Shown in pieces: positions 2,066 through 11,936 of a stretch of 42,007 nucleotides of DNA; positions within the stretch are counted from its first letter, which is position 1; the number at the start of each line of letters is the position of its first letter. The notes beneath the pieces are model-generated. The model was not told where the DNA came from. It was given only the letters and a program-made list of their open reading frames with translations, and searched no databases. Source of the DNA: Candidatus Staskawiczbacteria bacterium RIFCSPHIGHO2_02_FULL_42_22 (lineage in GTDB: Bacteria; Patescibacteriota; Minisyncoccia; Minisyncoccales; Staskawiczbacteraceae). The DNA is taken from contig MHOT01000023.1 of the NCBI GenBank assembly GCA_001820175.1, forward strand, positions 1 through 42,007. The letters are read 5' to 3'. The translations under genes were made by a program, and so were the position numbers.

Positions 2066-5000
2066 CTACCGCCCCTTAAACCCCGTTCCCACCGGAATAA
2101 TCTTACCAATAATCACGTTTTCTTTAAGGCCTCGCAAATGATCCACCTTGCCTTCAAGTGCGGCTTTGATTAAGACGCGAGAAGTTTGCTGGAAGGAAGC
2201 GGCTGACAAGAATGACTCCGATGCCAACGCCACTTCGGAAATACCCAATAAAATCTGGCTGCCAAGCGGTACCTGTTTTTTGGCTTTTTGCAATTGCTCT
2301 ACTTCTTCCTGGAATACGGACCACTCAACAATTTCACCCGGCACCCATGTAGAATCCCCTTCCTGCTTGATGCGAATTCGTGAAAACATTTTTTGAATAA
2401 TAACCTCAACGTGTTTGTCGTGAATATCCACTCCCTGGGAAGCATAAATCCTCTGCACTTCTTTTAAAATGTAGCGCTGGGTTTCTTCCAGGCCGCTGGC
2501 TTTGTACAACTTTTTTAAGTCCAAGCTTCCGCCGCACAATGGCTGGCTTTCGCGAACCTTATCGCCCACGGCAACTAACATGGCGATTCTTCCGGGAATC
2601 TGGTAATCAATCGATAAGTCCTTTTTACCAGAACCTTCGGGTTTTATGGTAATAATTTTCTTTTCTTCATCAATTTTGGTCACCACGCCTTCAGCCAGCG
2701 CACACACCGCTTCTCCTTTTGGAGCGCGGCATTCAAAAATTTCTTCAATTCTTGGCAAACCCTGGGTAATATCTCCGCCTCCGGCTACTCCTCCCAAGTG
2801 GTGGGTTCTTAAGGTCAACTGAGTCCCTGGTTCACCGATGGCCTGAGCCGCCACTACTCCCACCGCTTCACCCAGTTTTATTAATTCGTTTCTTCCCAAA
2901 TCCCAACCGTAACATTTCTGGCACACTCCACGGGCACTTTTACATGAAAGGGGTGATCGAATTTCCACCTTTTCAATTCCCTCTTTAGTAATTTGGGTGG
3001 CCTGGTGCCAATTAATAATGCTTCCCTTTTTAACAATGATTTCTTTTTTACCTCGACCTGCCATAGCTTTCTTGTCCGCCGACTTGTCCGCCGCAGCATT
3101 AGCGGAGGCGGCCTCTTCTGACTCCACGTCTTGCATACAATACCTTCCCACTAATTTAAAGGTGAAATTTTGTTCAATAGCATCAGCATCTTTCTTGAAA
3201 ACCGTAATGCCTTTTTTATCGCCACAGTCCTCTTCTGAAACAATGACATCGTGAGCCACGTCTACCAATCGGCGGGTTAAGTATCCGGCCGAAGAGGTTC
3301 TCAAAGCGGTATCGGCCGTTCCTTTTCTGGCTCCATGAGTGGAAATAAAATACTCAAGCACATTAAACCCTTCGGTAAATGAGGCCTTCACCGGTAACTC
3401 GATAATATCTCCGGCAGGGTTGTTTACCAGCCCCTTCATGCCGGCCATCTGTACCAACTGTGCCCAGGTACCTCGAGCCCCCGCGTTAATAATAGACATT
3501 ACGGGGCCGTCTTCGGGCAAAGTGGTTTTTAGCAAACCCTCCAGTTTTGTTTTAACCGACTGCCAAATCAAAATTTTCTGAGATGTTTTTTCTTCATGGG
3601 AGAGCAAGCCCTTTTCGTAATGGGACTCAATGCGCTCCACCTCTGTTTCAGCATCTTCGATAAGCTGTCCCTTTTCTTTTGGCACAATTAATTCATCCAT
3701 GCCCCAGGAAATTCCAGAAAGCGTGCAGTATTCAAATCCCATGGCTTTAATTTTGTCCAAGGTAGCAATGCATTCCTCTCCATGGTATTTTTCAATAATA
3801 TCACGCACCATGGCTTTCAAGGCCTTGTTGTCTATTAATTTGCTAACGTACGGATACGTGGCCGGCAAACTGCTGTTTAAAATAAGGCGGCCTACGGAGG
3901 TCTCAATAATTTCATGTTCGGGAGATTTGGGGTTTGGCACCTTAATTTTTTCGTTAAGTCCCAGGTAACCATATTCGTGAGCGGTAATGGCTTCAGAGTC
4001 ACTGGAATAAAGCTTCACTTCTTTTGGCTTGCCCTGAGCCGCGGCCAAGGGTTCTTTTATCTTTGACAGGAAATAACACCCAAGCGCGATATCGCGGAAC
4101 GGACCCATGACCGGCATGCCGTTGGCGGGCCTCAATAAGTTTAAGCTAGAAAGCATGATTTCCCTGGCCTCCCTTTGGGCCTCTTCAGATAGCGGCAAAT
4201 ACACGGCCATTTGGTCGCCGTCAAAGTCGGCATTGAAGGCCTCGCAGGCAAACGGATGTAATTTTATAGTATCTCCTTCGGTTAATACCGGATGAAAGGC
4301 CTGAATGCCCAAGCGGTGCAGGGTCGGAGCTCGGTTTAAGAGCACCACCTTATCTTTTACAATTTCTTCCAAAATGGCCCAGACCTCCGGCACCTTTTCT
4401 TCAATTAATCGGGCGGATCCGCGGATGTTATAAGCCAATTCTTTGTCCAGAATACGCTTAATAACAAAGGGCTTAAAAATTTCAAGGGCCAAATTTTTGG
4501 GCAAACCGCACTGTGAAAAATGCAATTCGGTTCCTACGGTAATAACCGATCTTCCTGAATAATCCACGCGCTTGCCCAATAAATTCTGCCTGAACCTTCC
4601 CTGTTTTCCGGCTAAAATAGCAGCCAACGATTTTAATAATCGTTTGCCTCCGGTAGTAGCGGTAGTGGTAACCCCTTTGCGCATTTCGTTATCAATTAAT
4701 GCGTCAACGGCCTCCTGCAACATTCTTTTTTCGTTTCGAACAATGACCGCTGGAGCTGAAATTTCCTGCAAATATTTCAATCGGTTATTGCGGTTAATAA
4801 CCCGACGGTATAAATCGTTTAGGTCAGAAGAGGCATATCGGCCGCCGTCAAGCTGGACCATGGGGCGTAAATCCGGCGGTAAAATGGGTAACACGTCAAT
4901 AAACATCCATTCGGGGCGTATTTTTGCCCGCAACATTCCTTGGAAAAGCTTCAGGCGGCGTAAAATTTTCTTTTTGGTAATCGGAGGAGCTTCGGCGGCC

Positions 5001-5701
5001 TCTTTGACCAATTCATCGGTGGTAATTTGCAAGTCAACACTGGCAAATAATTTCTTTATCACTTCAGCACCGGTCCCGGCTTCAAACATTTCTCCGTATT
5101 TAAGCGACAGTTCATTGTAAACGACCTCAGATAAAATTCTTAGTGGCTTTATTTCCAACACCTCTTCTTTTACTTTTTCCCGGGCCTGTTTCAATTCGTT
5201 TTTGGCGGTTTCGGTAGTTTCTTTCTTAACTTTAGTTTTAAATTCTTGCTCAACTTGGTCTAAGATCCTTTCGCGCGCCTCATTATCAACCTTAGTAATA
5301 ATGTAACTGGAAAAATAAATTACTTTTTCTAATTGCTGACTGGATTTATTTAACACCAAACCCATGCGGCTTGGTACGCCCCGCAAAAACCAAATATGCG
5401 AAACCGGAGTGGCCAACTTAATGTGGCCCATTCTCTCGCGCCTTACCTGTGACTTGGTAACTTCTACCCCGCACCGGTCGCACACCACGCCCTTATACCT
5501 GATTCTTTTATATTTTCCACAGGCACACTCATAGTCCTTGTCAGGGCCGAAAATCCGTTCATCAAAAAGACCATCCTTTTCGGGCTTTTGGGTTCTATAA
5601 TTGATGGTCTCTGGCGTAGTCACTTCGCCATGACTCCAGCTCAAAACTTCCTCGGGAGAAGCCAGTTTTATTCTGATTGATTCTAGGTCTATGACTCGCA
5701 T
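2066..5701 (-). CDS. rpoC: DNA-directed RNA polymerase subunit beta'
   Basis: The largest catalytic subunit of RNA polymerase. Visible hallmarks are the N-terminal zinc ribbon (CACGKY...CDRCG, about residues 59-78), the absolutely conserved NADFDGDQMA loop holding the active-site Mg2+, the trigger-loop/bridge-helix region, and the second zinc site (CGD...CKSARGVCQKC). At 1211 aa it is of ordinary compact bacterial length without a large lineage insert. It is downstream of rpoB but not adjacent: a membrane-protein gene and an oppositely oriented RNA locus lie between. The TGA/TAA ends and the terminator at 1966-2013 close the unit. Confidence 0.98.
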   Translation of the reverse strand: MRVIDLESIRIKLASPEEVLSWSHGEVTTPETINYRTQKPEKDGLFDERIFGPDKDYECACGKYKRIRYKGVVCDRCGVEVTKSQVRRERMGHIKLATPVSHIWFLRGVPSRMGLVLNKSSQQLEKVIYFSSYIITKVDNEARERILDQVEQEFKTKVKKETTETAKNELKQAREKVKEEVLEIKPLRILSEVVYNELSLKYGEMFEAGTGAEVIKKLFASVDLQITTDELVKEAAEAPPITKKKILRRLKLFQGMLRAKIRPEWMFIDVLPILPPDLRPMVQLDGGRYASSDLNDLYRRVINRNNRLKYLQEISAPAVIVRNEKRMLQEAVDALIDNEMRKGVTTTATTGGKRLLKSLAAILAGKQGRFRQNLLGKRVDYSGRSVITVGTELHFSQCGLPKNLALEIFKPFVIKRILDKELAYNIRGSARLIEEKVPEVWAILEEIVKDKVVLLNRAPTLHRLGIQAFHPVLTEGDTIKLHPFACEAFNADFDGDQMAVYLPLSEEAQREAREIMLSSLNLLRPANGMPVMGPFRDIALGCYFLSKIKEPLAAAQGKPKEVKLYSSDSEAITAHEYGYLGLNEKIKVPNPKSPEHEIIETSVGRLILNSSLPATYPYVSKLIDNKALKAMVRDIIEKYHGEECIATLDKIKAMGFEYCTLSGISWGMDELIVPKEKGQLIEDAETEVERIESHYEKGLLSHEEKTSQKILIWQSVKTKLEGLLKTTLPEDGPVMSIINAGARGTWAQLVQMAGMKGLVNNPAGDIIELPVKASFTEGFNVLEYFISTHGARKGTADTALRTSSAGYLTRRLVDVAHDVIVSEEDCGDKKGITVFKKDADAIEQNFTFKLVGRYCMQDVESEEAASANAAADKSADKKAMAGRGKKEIIVKKGSIINWHQATQITKEGIEKVEIRSPLSCKSARGVCQKCYGWDLGRNELIKLGEAVGVVAAQAIGEPGTQLTLRTHHLGGVAGGGDITQGLPRIEEIFECRAPKGEAVCALAEGVVTKIDEEKKIITIKPEGSGKKDLSIDYQIPGRIAMLVAVGDKVRESQPLCGGSLDLKKLYKASGLEETQRYILKEVQRIYASQGVDIHDKHVEVIIQKMFSRIRIKQEGDSTWVPGEIVEWSVFQEEVEQLQKAKKQVPLGSQILLGISEVALASESFLSAASFQQTSRVLIKAALEGKVDHLRGLKENVIIGKIIPVGTGFKGR

Positions 5702-5768
5702 GGGCGTAAATTTTTAATTACTAATTTTTAATTTTTAAATAATTTCTTAATGCCTAAATCTTTGAACG

Positions 5769-6290
5769 CTATTTAATAAATTTAAAGGTGGAAAGCAGGG
5801 GATCCAGAAGTCCTCCTTTAGAAGAACTTATTCTAATTGCCTGATTATTTTTTGGTATAATTATTTCCTGGAAAGTATTTCCCATTTCCGAAGAATATAA
5901 AAATTCCTTTGAAGATACGTTGCCAATCACAATATTATTTATTTCTTGAGGAGATTTTTGTTGCTCCACTTCTAAAACTTTTAAATAGCTTTCTGATAAA
6001 AACTCTATGGTCAAATAAGGATACGCTGGATTCTCTCTACTCACGTCTCCTGCAGCTCTAACTATGAAGAAATCTTTTTTTTCTAAATCAGTTACTTCAT
6101 ATCCTGGGGGATATTTAAACTCAAATCCGTATTCTGCATTTGTATACGTTTTCCAATCAGCAGTTTGGGTATTTGAATTTTGGACATTGACCAATGGAAT
6201 TTGGGATTTTTGCAAATATAAAAATGTCCCACCAATTGCAATGACTATCAATACAATAACTCCAATAATGATTAAAGCTCGTTTTTGCAT
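5769..6290 (-). CDS. PsbP-like single-span membrane protein (about 173 aa)
   Basis: After a basic start (MQKR) comes one membrane helix (IIIGVIVLIVIAIGGTFLYL) and an extracytoplasmic domain. That domain opens with DWKTYTNAEYGFEFKYPPGYE, the motif typical of PsbP-like proteins with a Mog1/PsbP fold that are frequent in Patescibacteria. The role in these bacteria is unknown. I choose the ATG at 6290; an upstream in-frame GTG at 6362 would add 24 residues but overlaps the start of the oppositely oriented sRNA, and neither start has a clear ribosome site. It sits between rpoB and rpoC, 67 bp upstream of rpoC. Confidence 0.65.
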   Translation of the reverse strand: MQKRALIIIGVIVLIVIAIGGTFLYLQKSQIPLVNVQNSNTQTADWKTYTNAEYGFEFKYPPGYEVTDLEKKDFFIVRAAGDVSRENPAYPYLTIEFLSESYLKVLEVEQQKSPQEINNIVIGNVSSKEFLYSSEMGNTFQEIIIPKNNQAIRISSSKGGLLDPLLSTFKFIK

Positions 6291-6309
6291 ATAATTTAGG
6301 GGCGGGGGC

Positions 6310-6337
6310 TTGACAATAGCTTTTGGTCTGCTATACT
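6310..6337 (+). promoter_or_regulatory. Strong sigma-70 promoter of the sRNA
   Basis: TTGACA (6310-6315) and TATACT (6332-6337) are separated by 16 bases, on the plus strand, opposite the 5' end of the PsbP-like gene. The predicted transcription start is near 6344, exactly where complementarity to the downstream tRNA-like gene begins. Confidence 0.65.
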
Positions 6338-6343
6338 GAAGGC

Positions 6344-6416
6344 GCTTATCAGACGACGTCACATTCTAGCAATAGAACCAGAAACAACATTTTCTTAATT
6401 GGAAGTGTTGTTTTTT
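6344..6416 (+). ncRNA. Putative sRNA complementary to the tRNA-like RNA
   Basis: A stand-alone unit of about 73 nt with a near-consensus promoter (6310-6337) and an intrinsic terminator (6383-6416: 12-bp stem with two G·U pairs, loop TTAATT, then T-run). Its first 12-13 bases (6343-6355, CGCTTATCAGACG) are the exact complement of the anticodon arm of the tRNA-like gene (6481-6493). Bases 6360-6368 and 6371-6379 are complementary (18 pairs, one G·U) to the variable arm and T-stem start (6510-6518 and 6497-6505). The two blocks appear in permuted order, so one continuous duplex cannot form. I infer a regulatory or antidote-like RNA; a rearranged tRNA remnant is the alternative. Confidence 0.45.
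6383..6416 (+). terminator. Intrinsic terminator of the sRNA
   Basis: Stem 6383-6394 with 6401-6412 (12 pairs including two G·U), 6-nt loop, followed by TTTT. On the other strand the run would be A, so direction is plus. Confidence 0.6.
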
Positions 6417-6451
6417 GTTCCATTATGATAAAATTGATTTGCGGAGGCATC

Positions 6452-6539
6452 GGAGGTTGAAACCAGATGGATCTGGTCACCGTCTGATAAGCGGTCGGTT
6501 CTATTCATTTAGGATGTGGTTCGATCCCACCGACCTCCG
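6452..6539 (+). tRNA. Non-canonical tRNA-like gene: 8/4 branch, long variable arm, anticodon GAU
   Basis: The gene folds as follows. Acceptor: 8 bp (6452-6459 with 6531-6538, one G·U). D arm: 6-bp stem (6462-6467/6472-6477) with the 4-nt loop TGGA. Anticodon arm: 6479-6495 with loop CTGATAA, giving GAU, U33 and A37. Variable arm: 5 bp (6499-6503/6510-6514). T arm: 4 bp (6516-6519/6527-6530) with the canonical loop TTCGATC. Discriminator: G6539; CCA is not encoded. The 6+4 D arm and 8-bp acceptor resemble tRNA-Sec, the GGAGG acceptor and G73 resemble tRNA-Ser, but the anticodon is that of Ile. Normal tRNA-Ile is class I with a 7/5 branch. tRNAs with 8/4 branches (allo-tRNAs) are known from metagenomes. 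The most likely charging enzyme is SerRS (inference). A weak promoter (TAAAAT at 6429-6434) and a terminator flank it. Confidence 0.7.
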
Positions 6540-6546
6540 CGTCAAG

Positions 6547-6569
6547 GAATCTACTTTTTGGTAGATTTT
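6547..6569 (+). terminator. Terminator after the tRNA-like gene
   Basis: AATCTAC and GTAGATT form a 7-bp stem with loop TTTTTG, followed by TTTT on the plus strand, 8 bases past the discriminator base. This indicates the RNA is a defined transcript. Confidence 0.6.
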
Positions 6570-6632
6570 TTGATTACTCTGGATTGCCGCGGTGCGCGGC
6601 TCCTCACAATGACCAAAAGCGTGCTTTCTATA

Positions 6633-6713
6633 TTTCCGCCCAAATATTTTCTCCAAAAGACACTTCCCCTAGCGCCTCCGGTGTCTTTTGCGGGGAAATA
6701 TTTGGGCGGAAAA
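6633..6713. repeat. Long palindrome directly after the rpoB stop
   Basis: Arms of about 31 bases (6633-6663 and 6681-6713, beginning TTTCCGCCCAAATATTT) pair with few mismatches around a 17-nt loop. It starts 2 bp past the rpoB stop and may end or process the rpoB mRNA, though no T-run follows on the minus strand. A MITE-like element is equally possible. A degenerate CATTGTGAGGAGC fragment lies just to the left (6576-6612). Confidence 0.55.
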
Positions 6714-6715
6714 AA

Positions 6716-9700
6716 CTATTTCTTATCCGTCTTAATTTCCCTTACTTTTTCCTTCACTTCCACGGCCAATCCAAGCGACTTCAATTCCGATACCAACAAA
6801 TTAAACGACGCCGGAATGTTCGGGTTGCGGATCGGCTCGCCTTTTAAAATGGCTTCATAGGTAGTAGCTCTTCCCACCACGTCGTCGGACTTAATGGTCA
6901 ACATTTCCTGCAGAGTATAGGCCGCGCCATATCCTTCCAGCGCCCACACTTCCATTTCTCCAAACCGCTGCCCTCCAAACTGGGCCTTTCCTCCCAATGG
7001 CTGTTGGGTAATCAATGAATAAGGCCCGATGGACCTGGCATGCACTTTGTCATCCACCATGTGGATTAATTTCATCACATACATATAGCCAACAGTAATG
7101 GGCCGAGGGAACGGCAAACCGGTTTTTCCATCGTACAAGGTCAGTTGCCCTGACTCTGGGAGCCCCGCCTCTTTCAATTCTTTTTTAATATCTTCTTTGT
7201 TGGCACCCAGCAACGATGGGGTGATGGCCAGGTAATTTAATTTCTTGGCGGCAAACCCTAAGTGAGTTTCCAAAATTTGCCCGATGTTCATACGGCTGGG
7301 AACCGACAGGGGAGAAAGCACTAAATCTACCGGCGTTCCGTCGGCCAAAAATGGCATTTCGGCTTCAGCTAATATTTTTGAAACCACTCCCTTGTTTCCG
7401 TGGCGCCCCACTAATTTGTCTCCCACTTTAACGTGACGGGTTTCAGAAATTTCCACCTGGATTTTTTTAATAACACCTGGCTCCAGTTTATGCCCTAAAT
7501 CCCGTGAGAATATTTTTACATTGGTAACCTTCCCGTGCTTTCCATGCTCCATTCGCAAGGATGTATCTTTTACATCCTTGGCCTTGTCGCCGAAAATAGC
7601 ACGCAGTAATCGTTCTTCGGGAGTTAATTCGGCCTCTCCTTTTGGGGAAATTTTTCCCACTAAAATATCGTTCGGGCCTACACTGGCTCCCACTCGCACC
7701 ACGCCTTCTTCGTCTAAATCCTTCAATTTTTCCTCTCCGACGTTGGGAATATCAGAAGTGGTAACTTCCGGACCCAATTTTGTTTCGCGCACATCAGAGG
7801 TAAAGTCCTCGATATGAATAGAGGTAAATTCAAATTCTTTTACTAACTTTTCCGAAATGGTAATGGAGTCCTCAAACCCCCCTCCTCGCAATGGCAAAAA
7901 GCACACCAAAATATTCCTACCAAGCGCCAAGCGGCCCTGGTCTATAGAAGCGCCATCGGCCAGCACATCGCCTTTTTTAATCGCCTCTCCCTTTTCTACA
8001 ATCGGTTTTTGGTGGAAACAAGAGTATTGGTTGGTCTTTATGAATGTTTGCAATTCATAGGTTTCCTCAACTTTTTTACCATTAATATCGTAGAGCACAT
8101 CAATGTGGGAAGCATCTACTTCTTTTATTACACCGTTGGCACGAGCCAACACCACTTGCCCGGAATCAATGGCAACGTTTCGCTCCACTCCGGTACCTAC
8201 GAGCGGCACTTCGGGCCGTACTAAGGGCACGGCTTGCCGTTGCATATTTGAACCCATCAGGGCGCGGGAAGCATCATCGTTTTGCAAAAAAGGAATTAAC
8301 GAAGCGGCGGCCGAAATAAACTGTTTTGAAGAAACATCGGAAAAATCCACTTTATCAATTTCAATTTCAGCCGGTTCTCCTTTTACCCTGGCCTCTACTT
8401 TATCGGGCGGAATTTCCGGTAAAATTTTACCTTTGTCATCAATAGGACACGATGCTGGAACAATCACGTAGCGCTCCTCCTCTTGGGCTGATAAATAATG
8501 AACTTCATCGGTGATTTTTCCATTTTTTACTTTAAAATAAGGGGCTTCGATAAATCCATAGGGATTTACCCGCGCAAAACTGGCTAAATGGCCCACCAAA
8601 CCCACATTCGGACCTTCCGGGGTCTCAATAGGACAAATTCTACCGTAGTGTGAGGGCTGCACGTCTCGAACCTCAAAACCGGCGCGTTCTCGGGTAAGAC
8701 CTCCGGGGCCCGTAGTAGTTAAGCGGCGCTTGTGTTCAAGTTCAGCTAAAGGATTTTCGTTATCCATAAACTGGGAAAACTGGGATGAAGTAAAAAATTC
8801 TTTAACCACTGCCATTAATGGCCGAGGGTTGATAAGCTGGATAGCGGTGATAGTAGCCGGATCCAGGGTAGACATTTTATCCTTAATAATTCTTTCCATG
8901 CGCATTAAACCCACGCGCAGTCGGTTTTGCAACAGTTCGGATAACGTTCGTACGCGCCGGTTTCCCAAGTGATCCACCTGATCGGCCTTAGCATTGGGAT
9001 TGTTGTTTAGGGCAATAATTTCTTTGACCACTTCCACTAAATCCTCAATTTTAAGGGTCCTTTCTTCTTTTTCAATATCCTTATCCTTGCTGTTAGATTT
9101 ATTTAAAACGGGTAAGCGCTGCCAGGTTTTCCATCGGCCAACCTTGGATAAATCATAACGGTCAAAATTGAAAAACATGTTAAAAATCAAGTCCTGGGCG
9201 GTATCGGGAGTCACCAAATCCCCGGGTCGCAGGCGCCGATAAATTTCCACCAGGGCTTCTTTTTGGTCTTTTGATGTATCGCGCTTGAGCGTTTCTTTAA
9301 TGTAATGTATTTCCCCGGTATCTATATCTTTAAAAGCTTTTTCTATTTTCTCGATATTTTCCAAGCCCAGCGCCATTAATAAGGTAGTAGCCGGCACTTT
9401 TCGTTTGCGGTTTATTTTAACCCCGATAAATCCCGAGTCCTCGGTTTCAAATTCAAGCCAGGCACCCCGGTTTGGAATAATTTTTGCGCCAAAGTAGTTT
9501 TTCCCCCGGTGGCTTCGGCTGGTAAAAAACGCGCCCGGAGACCTGATTAATTGGCTCACTACCACGCGCTCCACTCCATTAACCACAAAGGTTCCCCGTT
9601 CGGTCATTAATGGAAAATCCGCCAAGAACACCTCCTGGTCTTTAACTTCTTTGGTTTTTTTATTGACTAAACGGATTTTAACCCGCAGTGGAACCTCCAG

Positions 9701-9949
9701 AGAATCATTGTTCTGTTTTGCTTCTAGCCCATTCTTATAGTTTGCCTTACCGAGGGTATAATCCAAAAACCAGAGTTCAAACTCTTTGCCGGTATGGTCT
9801 AAGATAGGCGAAATTTCAGAAAACAGTTCTTTGATCCGGACTTGGGTGAAGTCATCCCACGTTTCTTGCTGCATTTGCAGAAGGTGCGGGGTGGGAAAAG
9901 AAATTTTCGCCTTTGAGAAATTTTTTAATTTTTTTTGTATCTCAGCCAT
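6716..9949 (-). CDS. rpoB: DNA-directed RNA polymerase subunit beta
   Basis: Second catalytic subunit of RNA polymerase. Clear landmarks are the rifampicin-pocket region (SQFMDNENPLAELEHKRRLT followed by GPGGLTRERAGFEVRDV and HYGRICPIETPEGPNVGL), the KHGKVTN/GRHGNKGV active-centre segment and the C-terminal GGKAQFGGQRFGEMEVWALE motif that joins beta'. The 1077-aa length is compact. rplJ/rplL, its usual upstream neighbours, are absent; upstream lie only word repeats and MITE F1. Residues of the Rif pocket look wild type (S-Q-F, H, R), with N rather than Q in DNENPL. Confidence 0.98.
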   Translation of the reverse strand: MAEIQKKLKNFSKAKISFPTPHLLQMQQETWDDFTQVRIKELFSEISPILDHTGKEFELWFLDYTLGKANYKNGLEAKQNNDSLEVPLRVKIRLVNKKTKEVKDQEVFLADFPLMTERGTFVVNGVERVVVSQLIRSPGAFFTSRSHRGKNYFGAKIIPNRGAWLEFETEDSGFIGVKINRKRKVPATTLLMALGLENIEKIEKAFKDIDTGEIHYIKETLKRDTSKDQKEALVEIYRRLRPGDLVTPDTAQDLIFNMFFNFDRYDLSKVGRWKTWQRLPVLNKSNSKDKDIEKEERTLKIEDLVEVVKEIIALNNNPNAKADQVDHLGNRRVRTLSELLQNRLRVGLMRMERIIKDKMSTLDPATITAIQLINPRPLMAVVKEFFTSSQFSQFMDNENPLAELEHKRRLTTTGPGGLTRERAGFEVRDVQPSHYGRICPIETPEGPNVGLVGHLASFARVNPYGFIEAPYFKVKNGKITDEVHYLSAQEEERYVIVPASCPIDDKGKILPEIPPDKVEARVKGEPAEIEIDKVDFSDVSSKQFISAAASLIPFLQNDDASRALMGSNMQRQAVPLVRPEVPLVGTGVERNVAIDSGQVVLARANGVIKEVDASHIDVLYDINGKKVEETYELQTFIKTNQYSCFHQKPIVEKGEAIKKGDVLADGASIDQGRLALGRNILVCFLPLRGGGFEDSITISEKLVKEFEFTSIHIEDFTSDVRETKLGPEVTTSDIPNVGEEKLKDLDEEGVVRVGASVGPNDILVGKISPKGEAELTPEERLLRAIFGDKAKDVKDTSLRMEHGKHGKVTNVKIFSRDLGHKLEPGVIKKIQVEISETRHVKVGDKLVGRHGNKGVVSKILAEAEMPFLADGTPVDLVLSPLSVPSRMNIGQILETHLGFAAKKLNYLAITPSLLGANKEDIKKELKEAGLPESGQLTLYDGKTGLPFPRPITVGYMYVMKLIHMVDDKVHARSIGPYSLITQQPLGGKAQFGGQRFGEMEVWALEGYGAAYTLQEMLTIKSDDVVGRATTYEAILKGEPIRNPNIPASFNLLVSELKSLGLAVEVKEKVREIKTDKK

Positions 9950-10724: not shown

Positions 10725-11531
10725 TTAAACCAGGAAGATTGCCACCACAATAATGGTAAACATGATCCCCACCACAATTGTGTTGTTCATGGCGTGATAC
10801 GCAGTGGAAGCCATTAGGGCATCTTCTTCCATTTGGATGAATGACCGACTGGCGACTTCCATCTTTTCATCCCATTGCCGCTGCGAAAGGGGTGGGGCTT
10901 CTTGTGAGCCAAGGTAGTCCATGGCTCTTTTTTGCTGGCCCCAGATTTTTTCAAAGGCACTCGCATAGACGAACCCGTAAAAAAATCCGGGGATGATGAG
11001 GGCGATAGCGGCAGCCAACGGAACTCCGACCAGAAGATGCACCAGGCCGAACGCAATGGATGCCTTGGTAATCCGGCCGAACGTGTGTCTGCCCTTTCGA
11101 AACATTTCCTCTTCGATCCAAGCGGCGTTAGGAAACATGATTACCAGAAGACCGAAAAATGCCAGAAAACCAAACGCGATCGATACTTTCAGGAGTATGA
11201 TCATGACCAGAGAAATCTGTACCGGTTTTGACCCAGGCGGCAGTTCCGCCAAAGCCGCGAGAGGTGCAAATATGATATTGCCACCCCCTTTGAAAAAGAG
11301 ATTTGTCCAACCCCAGTTAAGGCCGGGCACTTTCCTTAAGAGGAAGAAAGCGGCGGTTGTGACCAAAACCACCAAAAAGCATTGGAAAAACATGGCCACG
11401 CCAAAATGTTTCCATACCTTAAGGCAGAATTCCAGATTCTTTTCACCTACTTTCCCGACGGTCGGTTTAATGATAAAGTAAAGTGCCACACAAACCAGCA
11501 GTATCTGGGCGATGGTAATCAGAATGCCCAC
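10725..11531 (-). CDS. CPBP-family intramembrane metalloprotease (268 aa)
   Basis: Multi-pass membrane protein with about seven hydrophobic segments. Three spaced motifs fit the CPBP (CAAX protease and bacteriocin-processing) family: EEEMFR (EExxxR), FGLVH (FxxxH) and a C-terminal AYHAMNN. Their Glu and His residues would form the metal site in the membrane. The family cleaves prenylated or other membrane peptides; the substrate here is unknown. The gene is isolated, with its own terminator (10652-10687), and is more G+C-rich than neighbours. The start ATG at 11531 is preceded by GGGAGAATGTC, a plausible ribosome site. Confidence 0.7.
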   Translation of the reverse strand: MGILITIAQILLVCVALYFIIKPTVGKVGEKNLEFCLKVWKHFGVAMFFQCFLVVLVTTAAFFLLRKVPGLNWGWTNLFFKGGGNIIFAPLAALAELPPGSKPVQISLVMIILLKVSIAFGFLAFFGLLVIMFPNAAWIEEEMFRKGRHTFGRITKASIAFGLVHLLVGVPLAAAIALIIPGFFYGFVYASAFEKIWGQQKRAMDYLGSQEAPPLSQRQWDEKMEVASRSFIQMEEDALMASTAYHAMNNTIVVGIMFTIIVVAIFLV

Positions 11532-11658
11532 GACATTCTCCCTACGATATGGAAAATAACACCGCTATGCAACAAGCACAACGGATATTTCCCTGAGGAC
11601 GACGAAAAGAACTGATTTATTATTAGCACATTAAATACATACTGTCAATTTTTACTAA

Positions 11659-11936
11659 TGTGAGCTTGGTGAATAATGCCAAAAAATCCTCGTGTCATTC
11701 CTGCGCAAACGGGAATCCAGAGGCAATGGTAAGCATCTTGGATCCCGGGTCAAGCCCGGGATGACGTATACGGGGTTACTCACTGTGGGAGCTTGGTGAA
11801 TAATGCCAAAGATCGTCATTGCGAGGAGCCCCGCCCGCGGGCGGGGCGACGAAGCAATCTTAAAAAAGCAAATTGAGATTGCTTCACTGCGGTTCGCAAT
11901 GACGAAAAAAACTATTATTCACCAAGCTCCCATATT
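11659..11936. mobile_element. Composite repeat: GAGCTTGGTGAATAATGCC elements with CATTGCGAG and CGGGATGACG hairpins
   Basis: GAGCTTGGTGAATAATGCC occurs directly at 11661 and 11790, and its complement (ATTATTCACCAAGCTCCC) closes the array at 11911-11930. Between the direct copies lies a GTCATTCC...GGATCCCGGG...CCCGGGATGAC hairpin, and between the inverted pair a CGTCATTGCGAGGAG hairpin. This looks like one hairpin element beside a related half-element. The 11532-11658 gap shows nothing else. A 9-bp hairpin (CCATATTAC/GTAATATGG) follows at 11928-11952. Confidence 0.5.

Follow-up and report, generated by a model that had tools for sequence, protein, structure and literature searches.

An allo-tRNA and a cognate antisense RNA in a compact cassette of Patescibacteria: a candidate RNA-only toxin–antitoxin module

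The stretch of DNA analysed here, termed the window, comprises 42,007 nucleotides of Candidatus Staskawiczbacteria bacterium RIFCSPHIGHO2_02_FULL_42_22 (contig MHOT01000023.1), and carries a tRNA-like gene between rpoB (6716-9949, reverse strand) and a small open reading frame that precedes rpoC (2066-5701, reverse strand), on the strand opposite to these genes. A preliminary description had placed the gene at 6452-6539, and re-reading of the acceptor, the arms, the G73 base and the lack of CCA gave exactly the same coordinates. The acceptor stem consists of 8 bp between GGAGGTTG (6452-6459) and CGACCTCC (6531-6538); the D stem has 6 bp and a TGGA loop; the anticodon arm reads ACCGT-CTGATAA-GCGGT and places GAT at 6486-6488; a long variable arm of 5-6 bp follows; and the T stem, GTGG/CCAC, closes a TTCGATC loop. 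G73 is located at 6539 and no CCA is encoded after it. Energy minimization of 6451-6542 gives this cloverleaf as the best fold (z -2.7). The gene was called neither by ARAGORN nor by the Rfam tRNA model RF00005, while the selenocysteine tRNA model RF01852 scored it at 39.2 bits, under the cut-off of 47.

The tRNA-like gene, hereafter the allo-tRNA, was found to be one half of a two-RNA cassette of ~275 bp, the parts of which are as follows.

6310-6337, forward strand: promoter P1 of the antisense sRNA, with TTGACA at 6310-6315, a 16-nt spacer, TATACT at 6332-6337 and TG before the -10
6343-6416, forward strand: antisense sRNA (predicted antitoxin), about 75 nt long including a terminator of its own, from covariance model R2 and predicted fold
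6343-6355, forward strand: anti-anticodon segment CGCTTATCAGACG, a perfect 13-nt complement of anticodon arm 6482-6494
6359-6368, forward strand: anti-variable-arm segment TCACATTCTA, directed at the variable-arm 3' strand and the T-stem 5' strand; covaries (0/50,000 permutations)
6372-6379, forward strand: anti-variable-arm segment ATAGAACC, directed at the variable-arm 5' strand; covaries (0/50,000 permutations)
6380-6416, forward strand: sRNA terminator, a 15-bp hairpin then T6, kept in the unit alignment
6426-6434, forward strand: promoter P2 of the allo-tRNA, an extended -10 (TGA-TAAAAT) exactly 6 nt before 6441
6441-6451, forward strand: pre-tRNA 5' leader, whose GCGGAGG (6441-6447) is a repeat of the acceptor strand able to pair with CCTCCGC (6534-6540)
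6452-6539, forward strand: allo-tRNA (predicted toxin), with 8/4 branch, 6-bp D stem, long variable arm, GAT at 6486-6488 and G73 at 6539
6543-6572, forward strand: terminator of the allo-tRNA transcript (AATCTAC...GTAGATTTTTTG), a hairpin and T run conserved downstream of all aligned units

Promoter P1 matches the consensus at 11/12 positions, and TTGAC(A) with a -10-like hexamer is present upstream of all 30 homologous units; the sRNA start site would lie at about 6343. Covariance model R2, which describes the sRNA, had matches upstream of essentially all allo-tRNAs in the order. The P2 promoter of the window is an extended -10 only, and across the units its -10 has at least 5/6 matches in 28/30, the 6-nt spacing is kept in 28/30 and the TGn in 25/30; the extended -10 is likewise kept in a second, alanine-type family (see below). 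The order of parts is alike throughout the alignment, being TTGACA-N16-TATAAT (P1), an RNA of ~75 nt, a hairpin and T run, P2, GCGGAGG, the tRNA and a second terminator. At two further loci (L203 and L262), other DNA lies between the sRNA terminator and P2, and the two RNAs are therefore probably made separately. The sRNA would be produced in excess.

The 5' leader of the allo-tRNA can form at least six contiguous pairs with the 3' end in 27/30 units, and it covaries with the acceptor (GCGGAGAG/GGAGAG; GCGGTGGG/GGTGGG; GTGGACCCG and GTGGACTTG/CAGGTCCAC). In both families the transcript is predicted to open with a duplicate of the acceptor strand, and this duplicate can base-pair with the 3' strand up to and including N73 and the base after it. 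When the leader is present on the unprocessed RNA of the window, an alternative fold (fold B) was the minimum-energy choice. The leader/acceptor repeat was rejected as the real acceptor, since fold B gives a bulged branch of more than 12 bp, and it was retained as a precursor conformation. One interpretation is that the leader holds the precursor in an inactive state up to the processing of its 5' end.

Conservation of the allo-tRNA was studied using a covariance model of the tRNA (R1), and a structure-based alignment of 30 units (A2) was used for placement of the cloverleaf and the anticodon loop. A covariance model allowing 8/4 branches had been proposed as a check in the preliminary description; when this was run, the 30 units aligned with 93% of cells paired and with double changes at 21/29 pairs (0/500 shuffles). 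The D arm varied with compensation at all six pairs, and the 6-bp variable stem was 96% paired. Because the pairs covary, the cloverleaf is taken to be under purifying selection, and the 8/4 fold with long variable arm first read from the window alone is thus kept in 30 homologous units. Homologues with an ordinary class I tRNA-Ile fold would have spoken against that reading, and none had the 7/5 branch and short variable loop of canonical tRNA-Ile(GAU); all were 8/4 with a long variable arm.

The aligned units also kept U33 (28/30), A37 (30/30), the GG of the D loop (29/30) and G73 (29/29), together with a T loop of the TTCRA/TCCRA type in nearly all cases, and these marks suggest an RNA that can fold into the L shape and decode. 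Pairs 27-43 and 31-39, the latter closing the anticodon loop, were non-standard in 17/30 units each, and decoding by this weak anticodon stem could be poor. Host tRNA-Ser has the ends GGAG.../...CTCCG, which the allo-tRNA matches (GGAG..., G73). The anticodons among the 30 units were GAT (26), AAC (2), AAT (1) and AAG (1), with GAA in one unit of another order (L204). The tRNA half of the cassette therefore has the structure by which allo-tRNAs are defined, namely a 12-bp branch arranged as 8/4, a long variable arm, serine-type ends and a non-serine anticodon. For SerRS, recognition lies in the long variable arm rather than in the anticodon, and serine and alanine are attached to tRNA by synthetases, SerRS and AlaRS, that are blind to the anticodon. 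Allo-tRNAs of 8/4 shape insert serine in E. coli whatever their anticodon (PMC7609411). In the window, AUC and AUU account for 151/2290 codons of rpoB and rpoC, so efficient insertion of serine at isoleucine codons would be severe.

A normal tRNA-Ile(GAU) was found by its D-arm pattern in each of the 12 other genomes in the genus, carriers of the allo-tRNA included, and its T loop is GGTCCGA. An absence of any other GAU tRNA, together with proof of isoleucine charging, had been named beforehand as a finding that would count against an unusual role, and in the relatives another GAU tRNA was present. The source assembly is without a canonical tRNA-Ile(GAU) and also without tRNAs for Met, Asn, Asp, Gln and Tyr; as five other kinds are absent too, this is best explained as an assembly gap. 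The allo-tRNA is thus considered to be extra and unneeded for isoleucine, since relatives carry the normal tRNA, and the idea that it is the sole tRNA-Ile of the genome was rejected. As separate observations, truncated 5' copies of tRNA-Ile(GAU) lie just upstream of the intact gene in two genomes (L112 in G012; L117 in G006), and a 3'-like fragment lies downstream in a third (L116 in G008). Arg-type tRNAs with unusually long variable regions were also noted, one of 104 nt in the source assembly (TCG-like; L032, complement of 502-605, G000:C7) and one of 90 nt (CCG; L023, 1501-1590).

The relationship between the sRNA and the allo-tRNA was then considered in the window and across the units. A run of at least 13 Watson-Crick pairs, as in the perfect 13-nt match of the sRNA with the anticodon arm, was given by 1/20,000 shuffles of the sRNA. 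Among the 30 units, the sRNA formed 15.5 pairs with the cognate anticodon arm compared with 12.1 for non-cognate arms (0/100,000 permutations, a value that, like those below, overstates independence because the unit sequences are related by descent). Both variable-arm segments of the sRNA also preferred the cognate tRNA (0/50,000 permutations each). Single positions showed four or five types of pair and yet were complementary, for example C-G 10, A-T 7, T-A 7, G-C 5 and T-G 1. The same test on the 30 units revealed no cognate preference for the D arm, the acceptor strands, the T loop or the leader. The D arm is an important negative control, as it varies with compensation itself, and kinship is an unlikely cause of the covariation given that the D-arm, acceptor and T-loop controls lack a cognate preference.

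Anticodon switches (AAT, AAC and AAG, and GAA in L204) were tracked by matching changes in the sRNA. The mean length of the sRNA match was 13.4 nt to its own allo-tRNA versus 7.1 nt to canonical tRNA-Ile, and with so much shorter a match the sRNA can spare the tRNA-Ile of the host. The predicted gain on co-folding of sRNA and tRNA was -3.5 kcal/mol for the window, with means of -5.6 for cognate and -2.0 for non-cognate combinations; as this gain is modest, action of the sRNA would require tRNA that is nascent or accessible at its loops. A specific interaction of adjacent RNA products, as looked for in a toxin–antitoxin pair, was thus found as predicted pairing, with cognate complementarity at the anticodon and variable arms only. 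Taken together, it is very probable that the cassette consists of a tRNA and its cognate antisense RNA. At one locus (L161 in G023, units at 5525-5769 and 11448-11690), the sRNA contains GTGGAGTCGAACCACATTC, which is antisense to the T arm of ordinary members and not to its own tRNA; the sRNA of these two copies pairs strongly with the tRNAs of other members, and it may act against sister copies.

In total, 33 units of this first family were found in 24 Patescibacteria genomes, with a patchy distribution and up to four per genome. A DNA search with 6300-6545 detected the whole stretch, and not the tRNA alone, in 12/98 relatives at 69-79% identity and often in several copies. Model R1 separated members (63-109 bits, plus one clipped by a contig end) from ordinary tRNAs (about 45 bits or less) and identified 30 units in 21/247 genomes of the order; outside the order, the class yielded two units from its other orders (L203, L204), and a different class of the same phylum yielded one (L285). 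The sRNA was present upstream of all 30 aligned units and of these three. When 84,980 species genomes were scanned with a pattern, 17 stretches were obtained and, where a group was named, it was a candidate-phyla (Patescibacteria) lineage, comprising Staskawiczbacteria, Nealsonbacteria, Gribaldobacteria, Parcubacteria and Paceibacterota.

The sites occupied are unrelated and include rpoB|rpoC, ftsA|ftsZ, gaps in the atp operon and positions beside nusA, among others. A hand count showed the orientation antisense to both neighbours to be ~3 times commoner than sense (about 12 to 4), a bias for which the two terminators readily account, since in the sense orientation an operon would be blocked by them. 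In the closest relative (G010), the rpoB-rpoC site is empty and a unit is located elsewhere in the genome. The cassette of the window adjoins a short repeat, CATTGCGAG...GCAATC (about 6583-6611, CATTGTGAGGAGCCGCGCACCGCGGCAATC on the reverse strand; L192), that is also present at the empty G010 site and is a possible insertion target. Separately, a near-perfect long inverted repeat at 6631-6715 of the window (CCGCCCAAATATTT...AAATATTTGGGCGG), just after rpoB, is terminator- or MITE-like.

In a single clear case (L233 in G003), P1, the sRNA and its terminator are intact and the tRNA is cut to its 3' end, which would represent loss of the toxin with the antitoxin kept. Similar sRNA-like units (GATAATCCTG...TCTCGTA) with no visible tRNA downstream occur in two different families (L234 in G039:C2; L243 in G089:C1), and could be orphan antitoxins or a further family. 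Clustering of 268 flanking open reading frames yielded housekeeping operons only (rpoB, rpoC and others) and no conserved protein partner. The idea of carriage by viruses or plasmids was rejected, as neither 50,697 phage nor 72,556 plasmid records gave a match and the family-1 pattern had none in IMG/VR. Two other leads were discarded, as a match of the family-2 pattern on one viral contig proved to be an ordinary phage tRNA cluster, and a loose promoter/antisense pattern gave unspecific matches, none of the 38 loci tested being matched by R1.

When model R2 of the sRNA was used as the query, a different tRNA-like RNA came to light in the same cassette layout, with a 7/5 branch, a short variable loop and a 9-nt anticodon loop. 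About 31 units of this second family scored at least 60 bits in the order (loci L246-L268 and L277-L284; examples are L241 in G026 and L245 in G019). In 23 aligned units, 98.6% of cells were paired and 13 pairs showed double changes. The alanine identity pair G3:U70 was present in 23/23 and A73 in 22/23, and the acceptor resembles that of host tRNA-Ala (GGGCCC.../...GGGTCCA). The anticodons are of the Leu, Ser or Pro kind, with UAG, UGA or UGG as the central triplet. Covariation with the sRNA was seen for each of the two anticodon-arm strands (0/20,000 in either case); a segment of acceptor 5' strand and linker also gave 0/20,000, with a small difference of 9.15 vs 8.59, and this signal is ascribed to relatedness. 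In our view, the strongest hint that charging with the wrong amino acid is the point comes from the two scaffolds being suited to precisely those two synthetases that are best known for ignoring the anticodon. In one genome (L244, G057:C24:3150-3800), what is possibly a third tRNA-like scaffold (GGGCCTGGGTG...CCCAGGTCC) follows the same type of promoter, sRNA and terminator.

One interpretation of these data, which we consider rather probable, is that an antisense-gated mischarged tRNA constitutes an RNA-only toxin–antitoxin or addiction cassette. As read from the DNA, the architecture, the cloverleaf, the sRNA:tRNA co-evolution, the status of the allo-tRNA as extra to a normal tRNA-Ile and the AlaRS-type scaffold all point in this direction, and from them we infer a course of transcription, charging, misreading and toxicity. 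In this compact, mobile and protein-free cassette, P1 would make the short antisense sRNA and P2 the 8/4 allo-tRNA, with tRNA-Ser-like ends and variable arm and the isoleucine anticodon GAU. SerRS, being blind to the anticodon, would charge the allo-tRNA with serine, and the resulting Ser-tRNA(GAU) would decode AUC and AUU, so that serine replaces isoleucine and the proteome is damaged. Pairing of the sRNA with the anticodon loop would block decoding and, with its pairing to the variable arm, the main contact of SerRS, would neutralize the tRNA. The two RNAs would differ in stability, and a stable tRNA toxin combined with a short-lived antisense RNA from the stronger promoter would form an addiction module, which would account for the patchy, multicopy spread. 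Of the three roles offered in the preliminary description, regulated mistranslation is clearly the best supported, with a regulatory decoy and a non-decoding aminoacyl donor less so, and the adjacent antisense RNA, which had gone unseen there, would give the word 'regulated' a concrete mechanism.

It could be, instead, that the cassette benefits its host by controlled mistranslation, the sRNA tuning a suppressor that puts serine at isoleucine codons (or alanine at Leu, Ser or Pro codons) for useful proteome noise or a stress response, with no addiction. Covariation of the cloverleaf and of sRNA with tRNA supports this equally, and known allo-tRNAs do put serine or alanine at sense and stop codons in E. 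coli (PMC7609411). However, presence of the first family in 21/247 genomes of the order, at unrelated loci, in up to four copies and with absence from most close relatives is a better fit to a selfish element, and the host-benefit explanation is considered unlikely. The strong co-evolution of both RNAs and the weak anticodon stem would also suit an sRNA effector for which the tRNA-like RNA is a sponge or decoy, with neither acting in translation; retention of G73, G18G19, the T loop and U33/A37 or, in the second family, of the invariant G3:U70 and A73 would, however, be needless in a sponge, which renders the idea improbable. Somewhat less probable again is a cis-acting leader, in which the sRNA region is a T-box-like attenuator of the tRNA gene that senses its own tRNA. 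The terminator between leader and tRNA and the specifier-like complementarity of a leader segment to the anticodon are in keeping with an attenuator, but P2 has its own conserved extended -10 at a fixed spacing, other DNA parts the sRNA terminator from P2 in L203 and L262, and no T-box was matched by Rfam in the window at gathering score or in 6250-6720 at E up to 5. An ordinary origin, whether as the only tRNA-Ile, a tRNA pseudogene or a variant of selenocysteine tRNA, is very improbable, as the RF01852 score and the missing tRNA-Ile(GAU) of the source assembly are outweighed by a sub-cut-off match with anticodon GAU and never UCA, by covariation that signals purifying selection, and by the canonical tRNA in 12/12 other genomes of the genus against one assembly gap.

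If the toxin–antitoxin reading is extended to both families, the cassettes may represent a new class of protein-free addiction or anti-phage elements of Patescibacteria, with a mischarged suppressor-type tRNA as the toxin and its cognate antisense RNA as the antitoxin. The design would have arisen on at least two scaffolds, each with a synthetase that ignores the anticodon (SerRS; AlaRS), the anticodon thus being free to choose the codons poisoned; for this wider proposal we regard the case as evenly balanced. Among open-licence papers, nothing similar to a tRNA with a co-evolved antisense RNA was found, and this would be the first tRNA with an antisense inhibitor of its own. If toxic, it would also be the first toxin to kill by deliberate tRNA mistranslation and not by attacking tRNAs. 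The finding also shows that the very small genomes of host-dependent bacteria harbour minute mobile elements made of RNA alone, which go unreported by ARAGORN and the Rfam tRNA model, and for genetic-code engineering the cassette provides a suppressor tRNA of natural origin that is gated by an sRNA. The existence of allo-tRNAs whose anticodons are arbitrary has, to our knowledge, been an open question since their description; a testable reason would be that they are weapons or addiction devices, which need only a synthetase blind to the anticodon.

Allo-tRNAs were reportedly described by Mukai et al. in 2017 as serine-type tRNAs of 8/4 and 9/3 shape with non-serine anticodons, and the RNA studied here is like them in its 12-bp acceptor branch arranged as 8/4, long variable arm, Ser-type ends and non-Ser anticodon. 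Alanine-type allo-tRNAs with G3:U70 are among the known ones, soil allo-tRNA(UAU) forms have an extra element between the acceptor and the D arm, and links of allo-tRNAs to transposons or toxin–antitoxin systems have been hypothesized (PMC7609411). The present case differs in its Patescibacteria host, where the review lists Clostridia, Proteobacteria and Acidobacteria, and in the co-evolving antisense sRNA with a separate promoter and terminator, which is undescribed in that review (PMC7609411). Selenocysteine tRNA (RF01852) shares the 8-bp acceptor, 6-bp D stem, 4-nt loop, long variable arm and G73, but the allo-tRNA has GAU and not UCA, a sub-cut-off score, a normal sense-codon loop and an antisense partner; an assignment as tRNA-Sec was rejected.

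In type I toxin–antitoxin systems, the antitoxin is an antisense RNA and its target is the toxin mRNA. The cassette resembles these in that a small antisense RNA lies adjacent to its target and covaries with it, and in being compact, patchy and multicopy, and differs in that the target is a tRNA, no peptide is encoded and the RNAs are in tandem on one strand. In CreTA, the RNA toxin CreT sequesters a host tRNA, and CreA RNA with Cascade represses its transcription (PMC8501985, PMC10097628). Both systems would thus have an RNA-controlled RNA toxin that hits translation via tRNA biology. In the cassette, however, the toxin RNA would itself be a tRNA, with no protein partner found, and control would be by direct base pairing.
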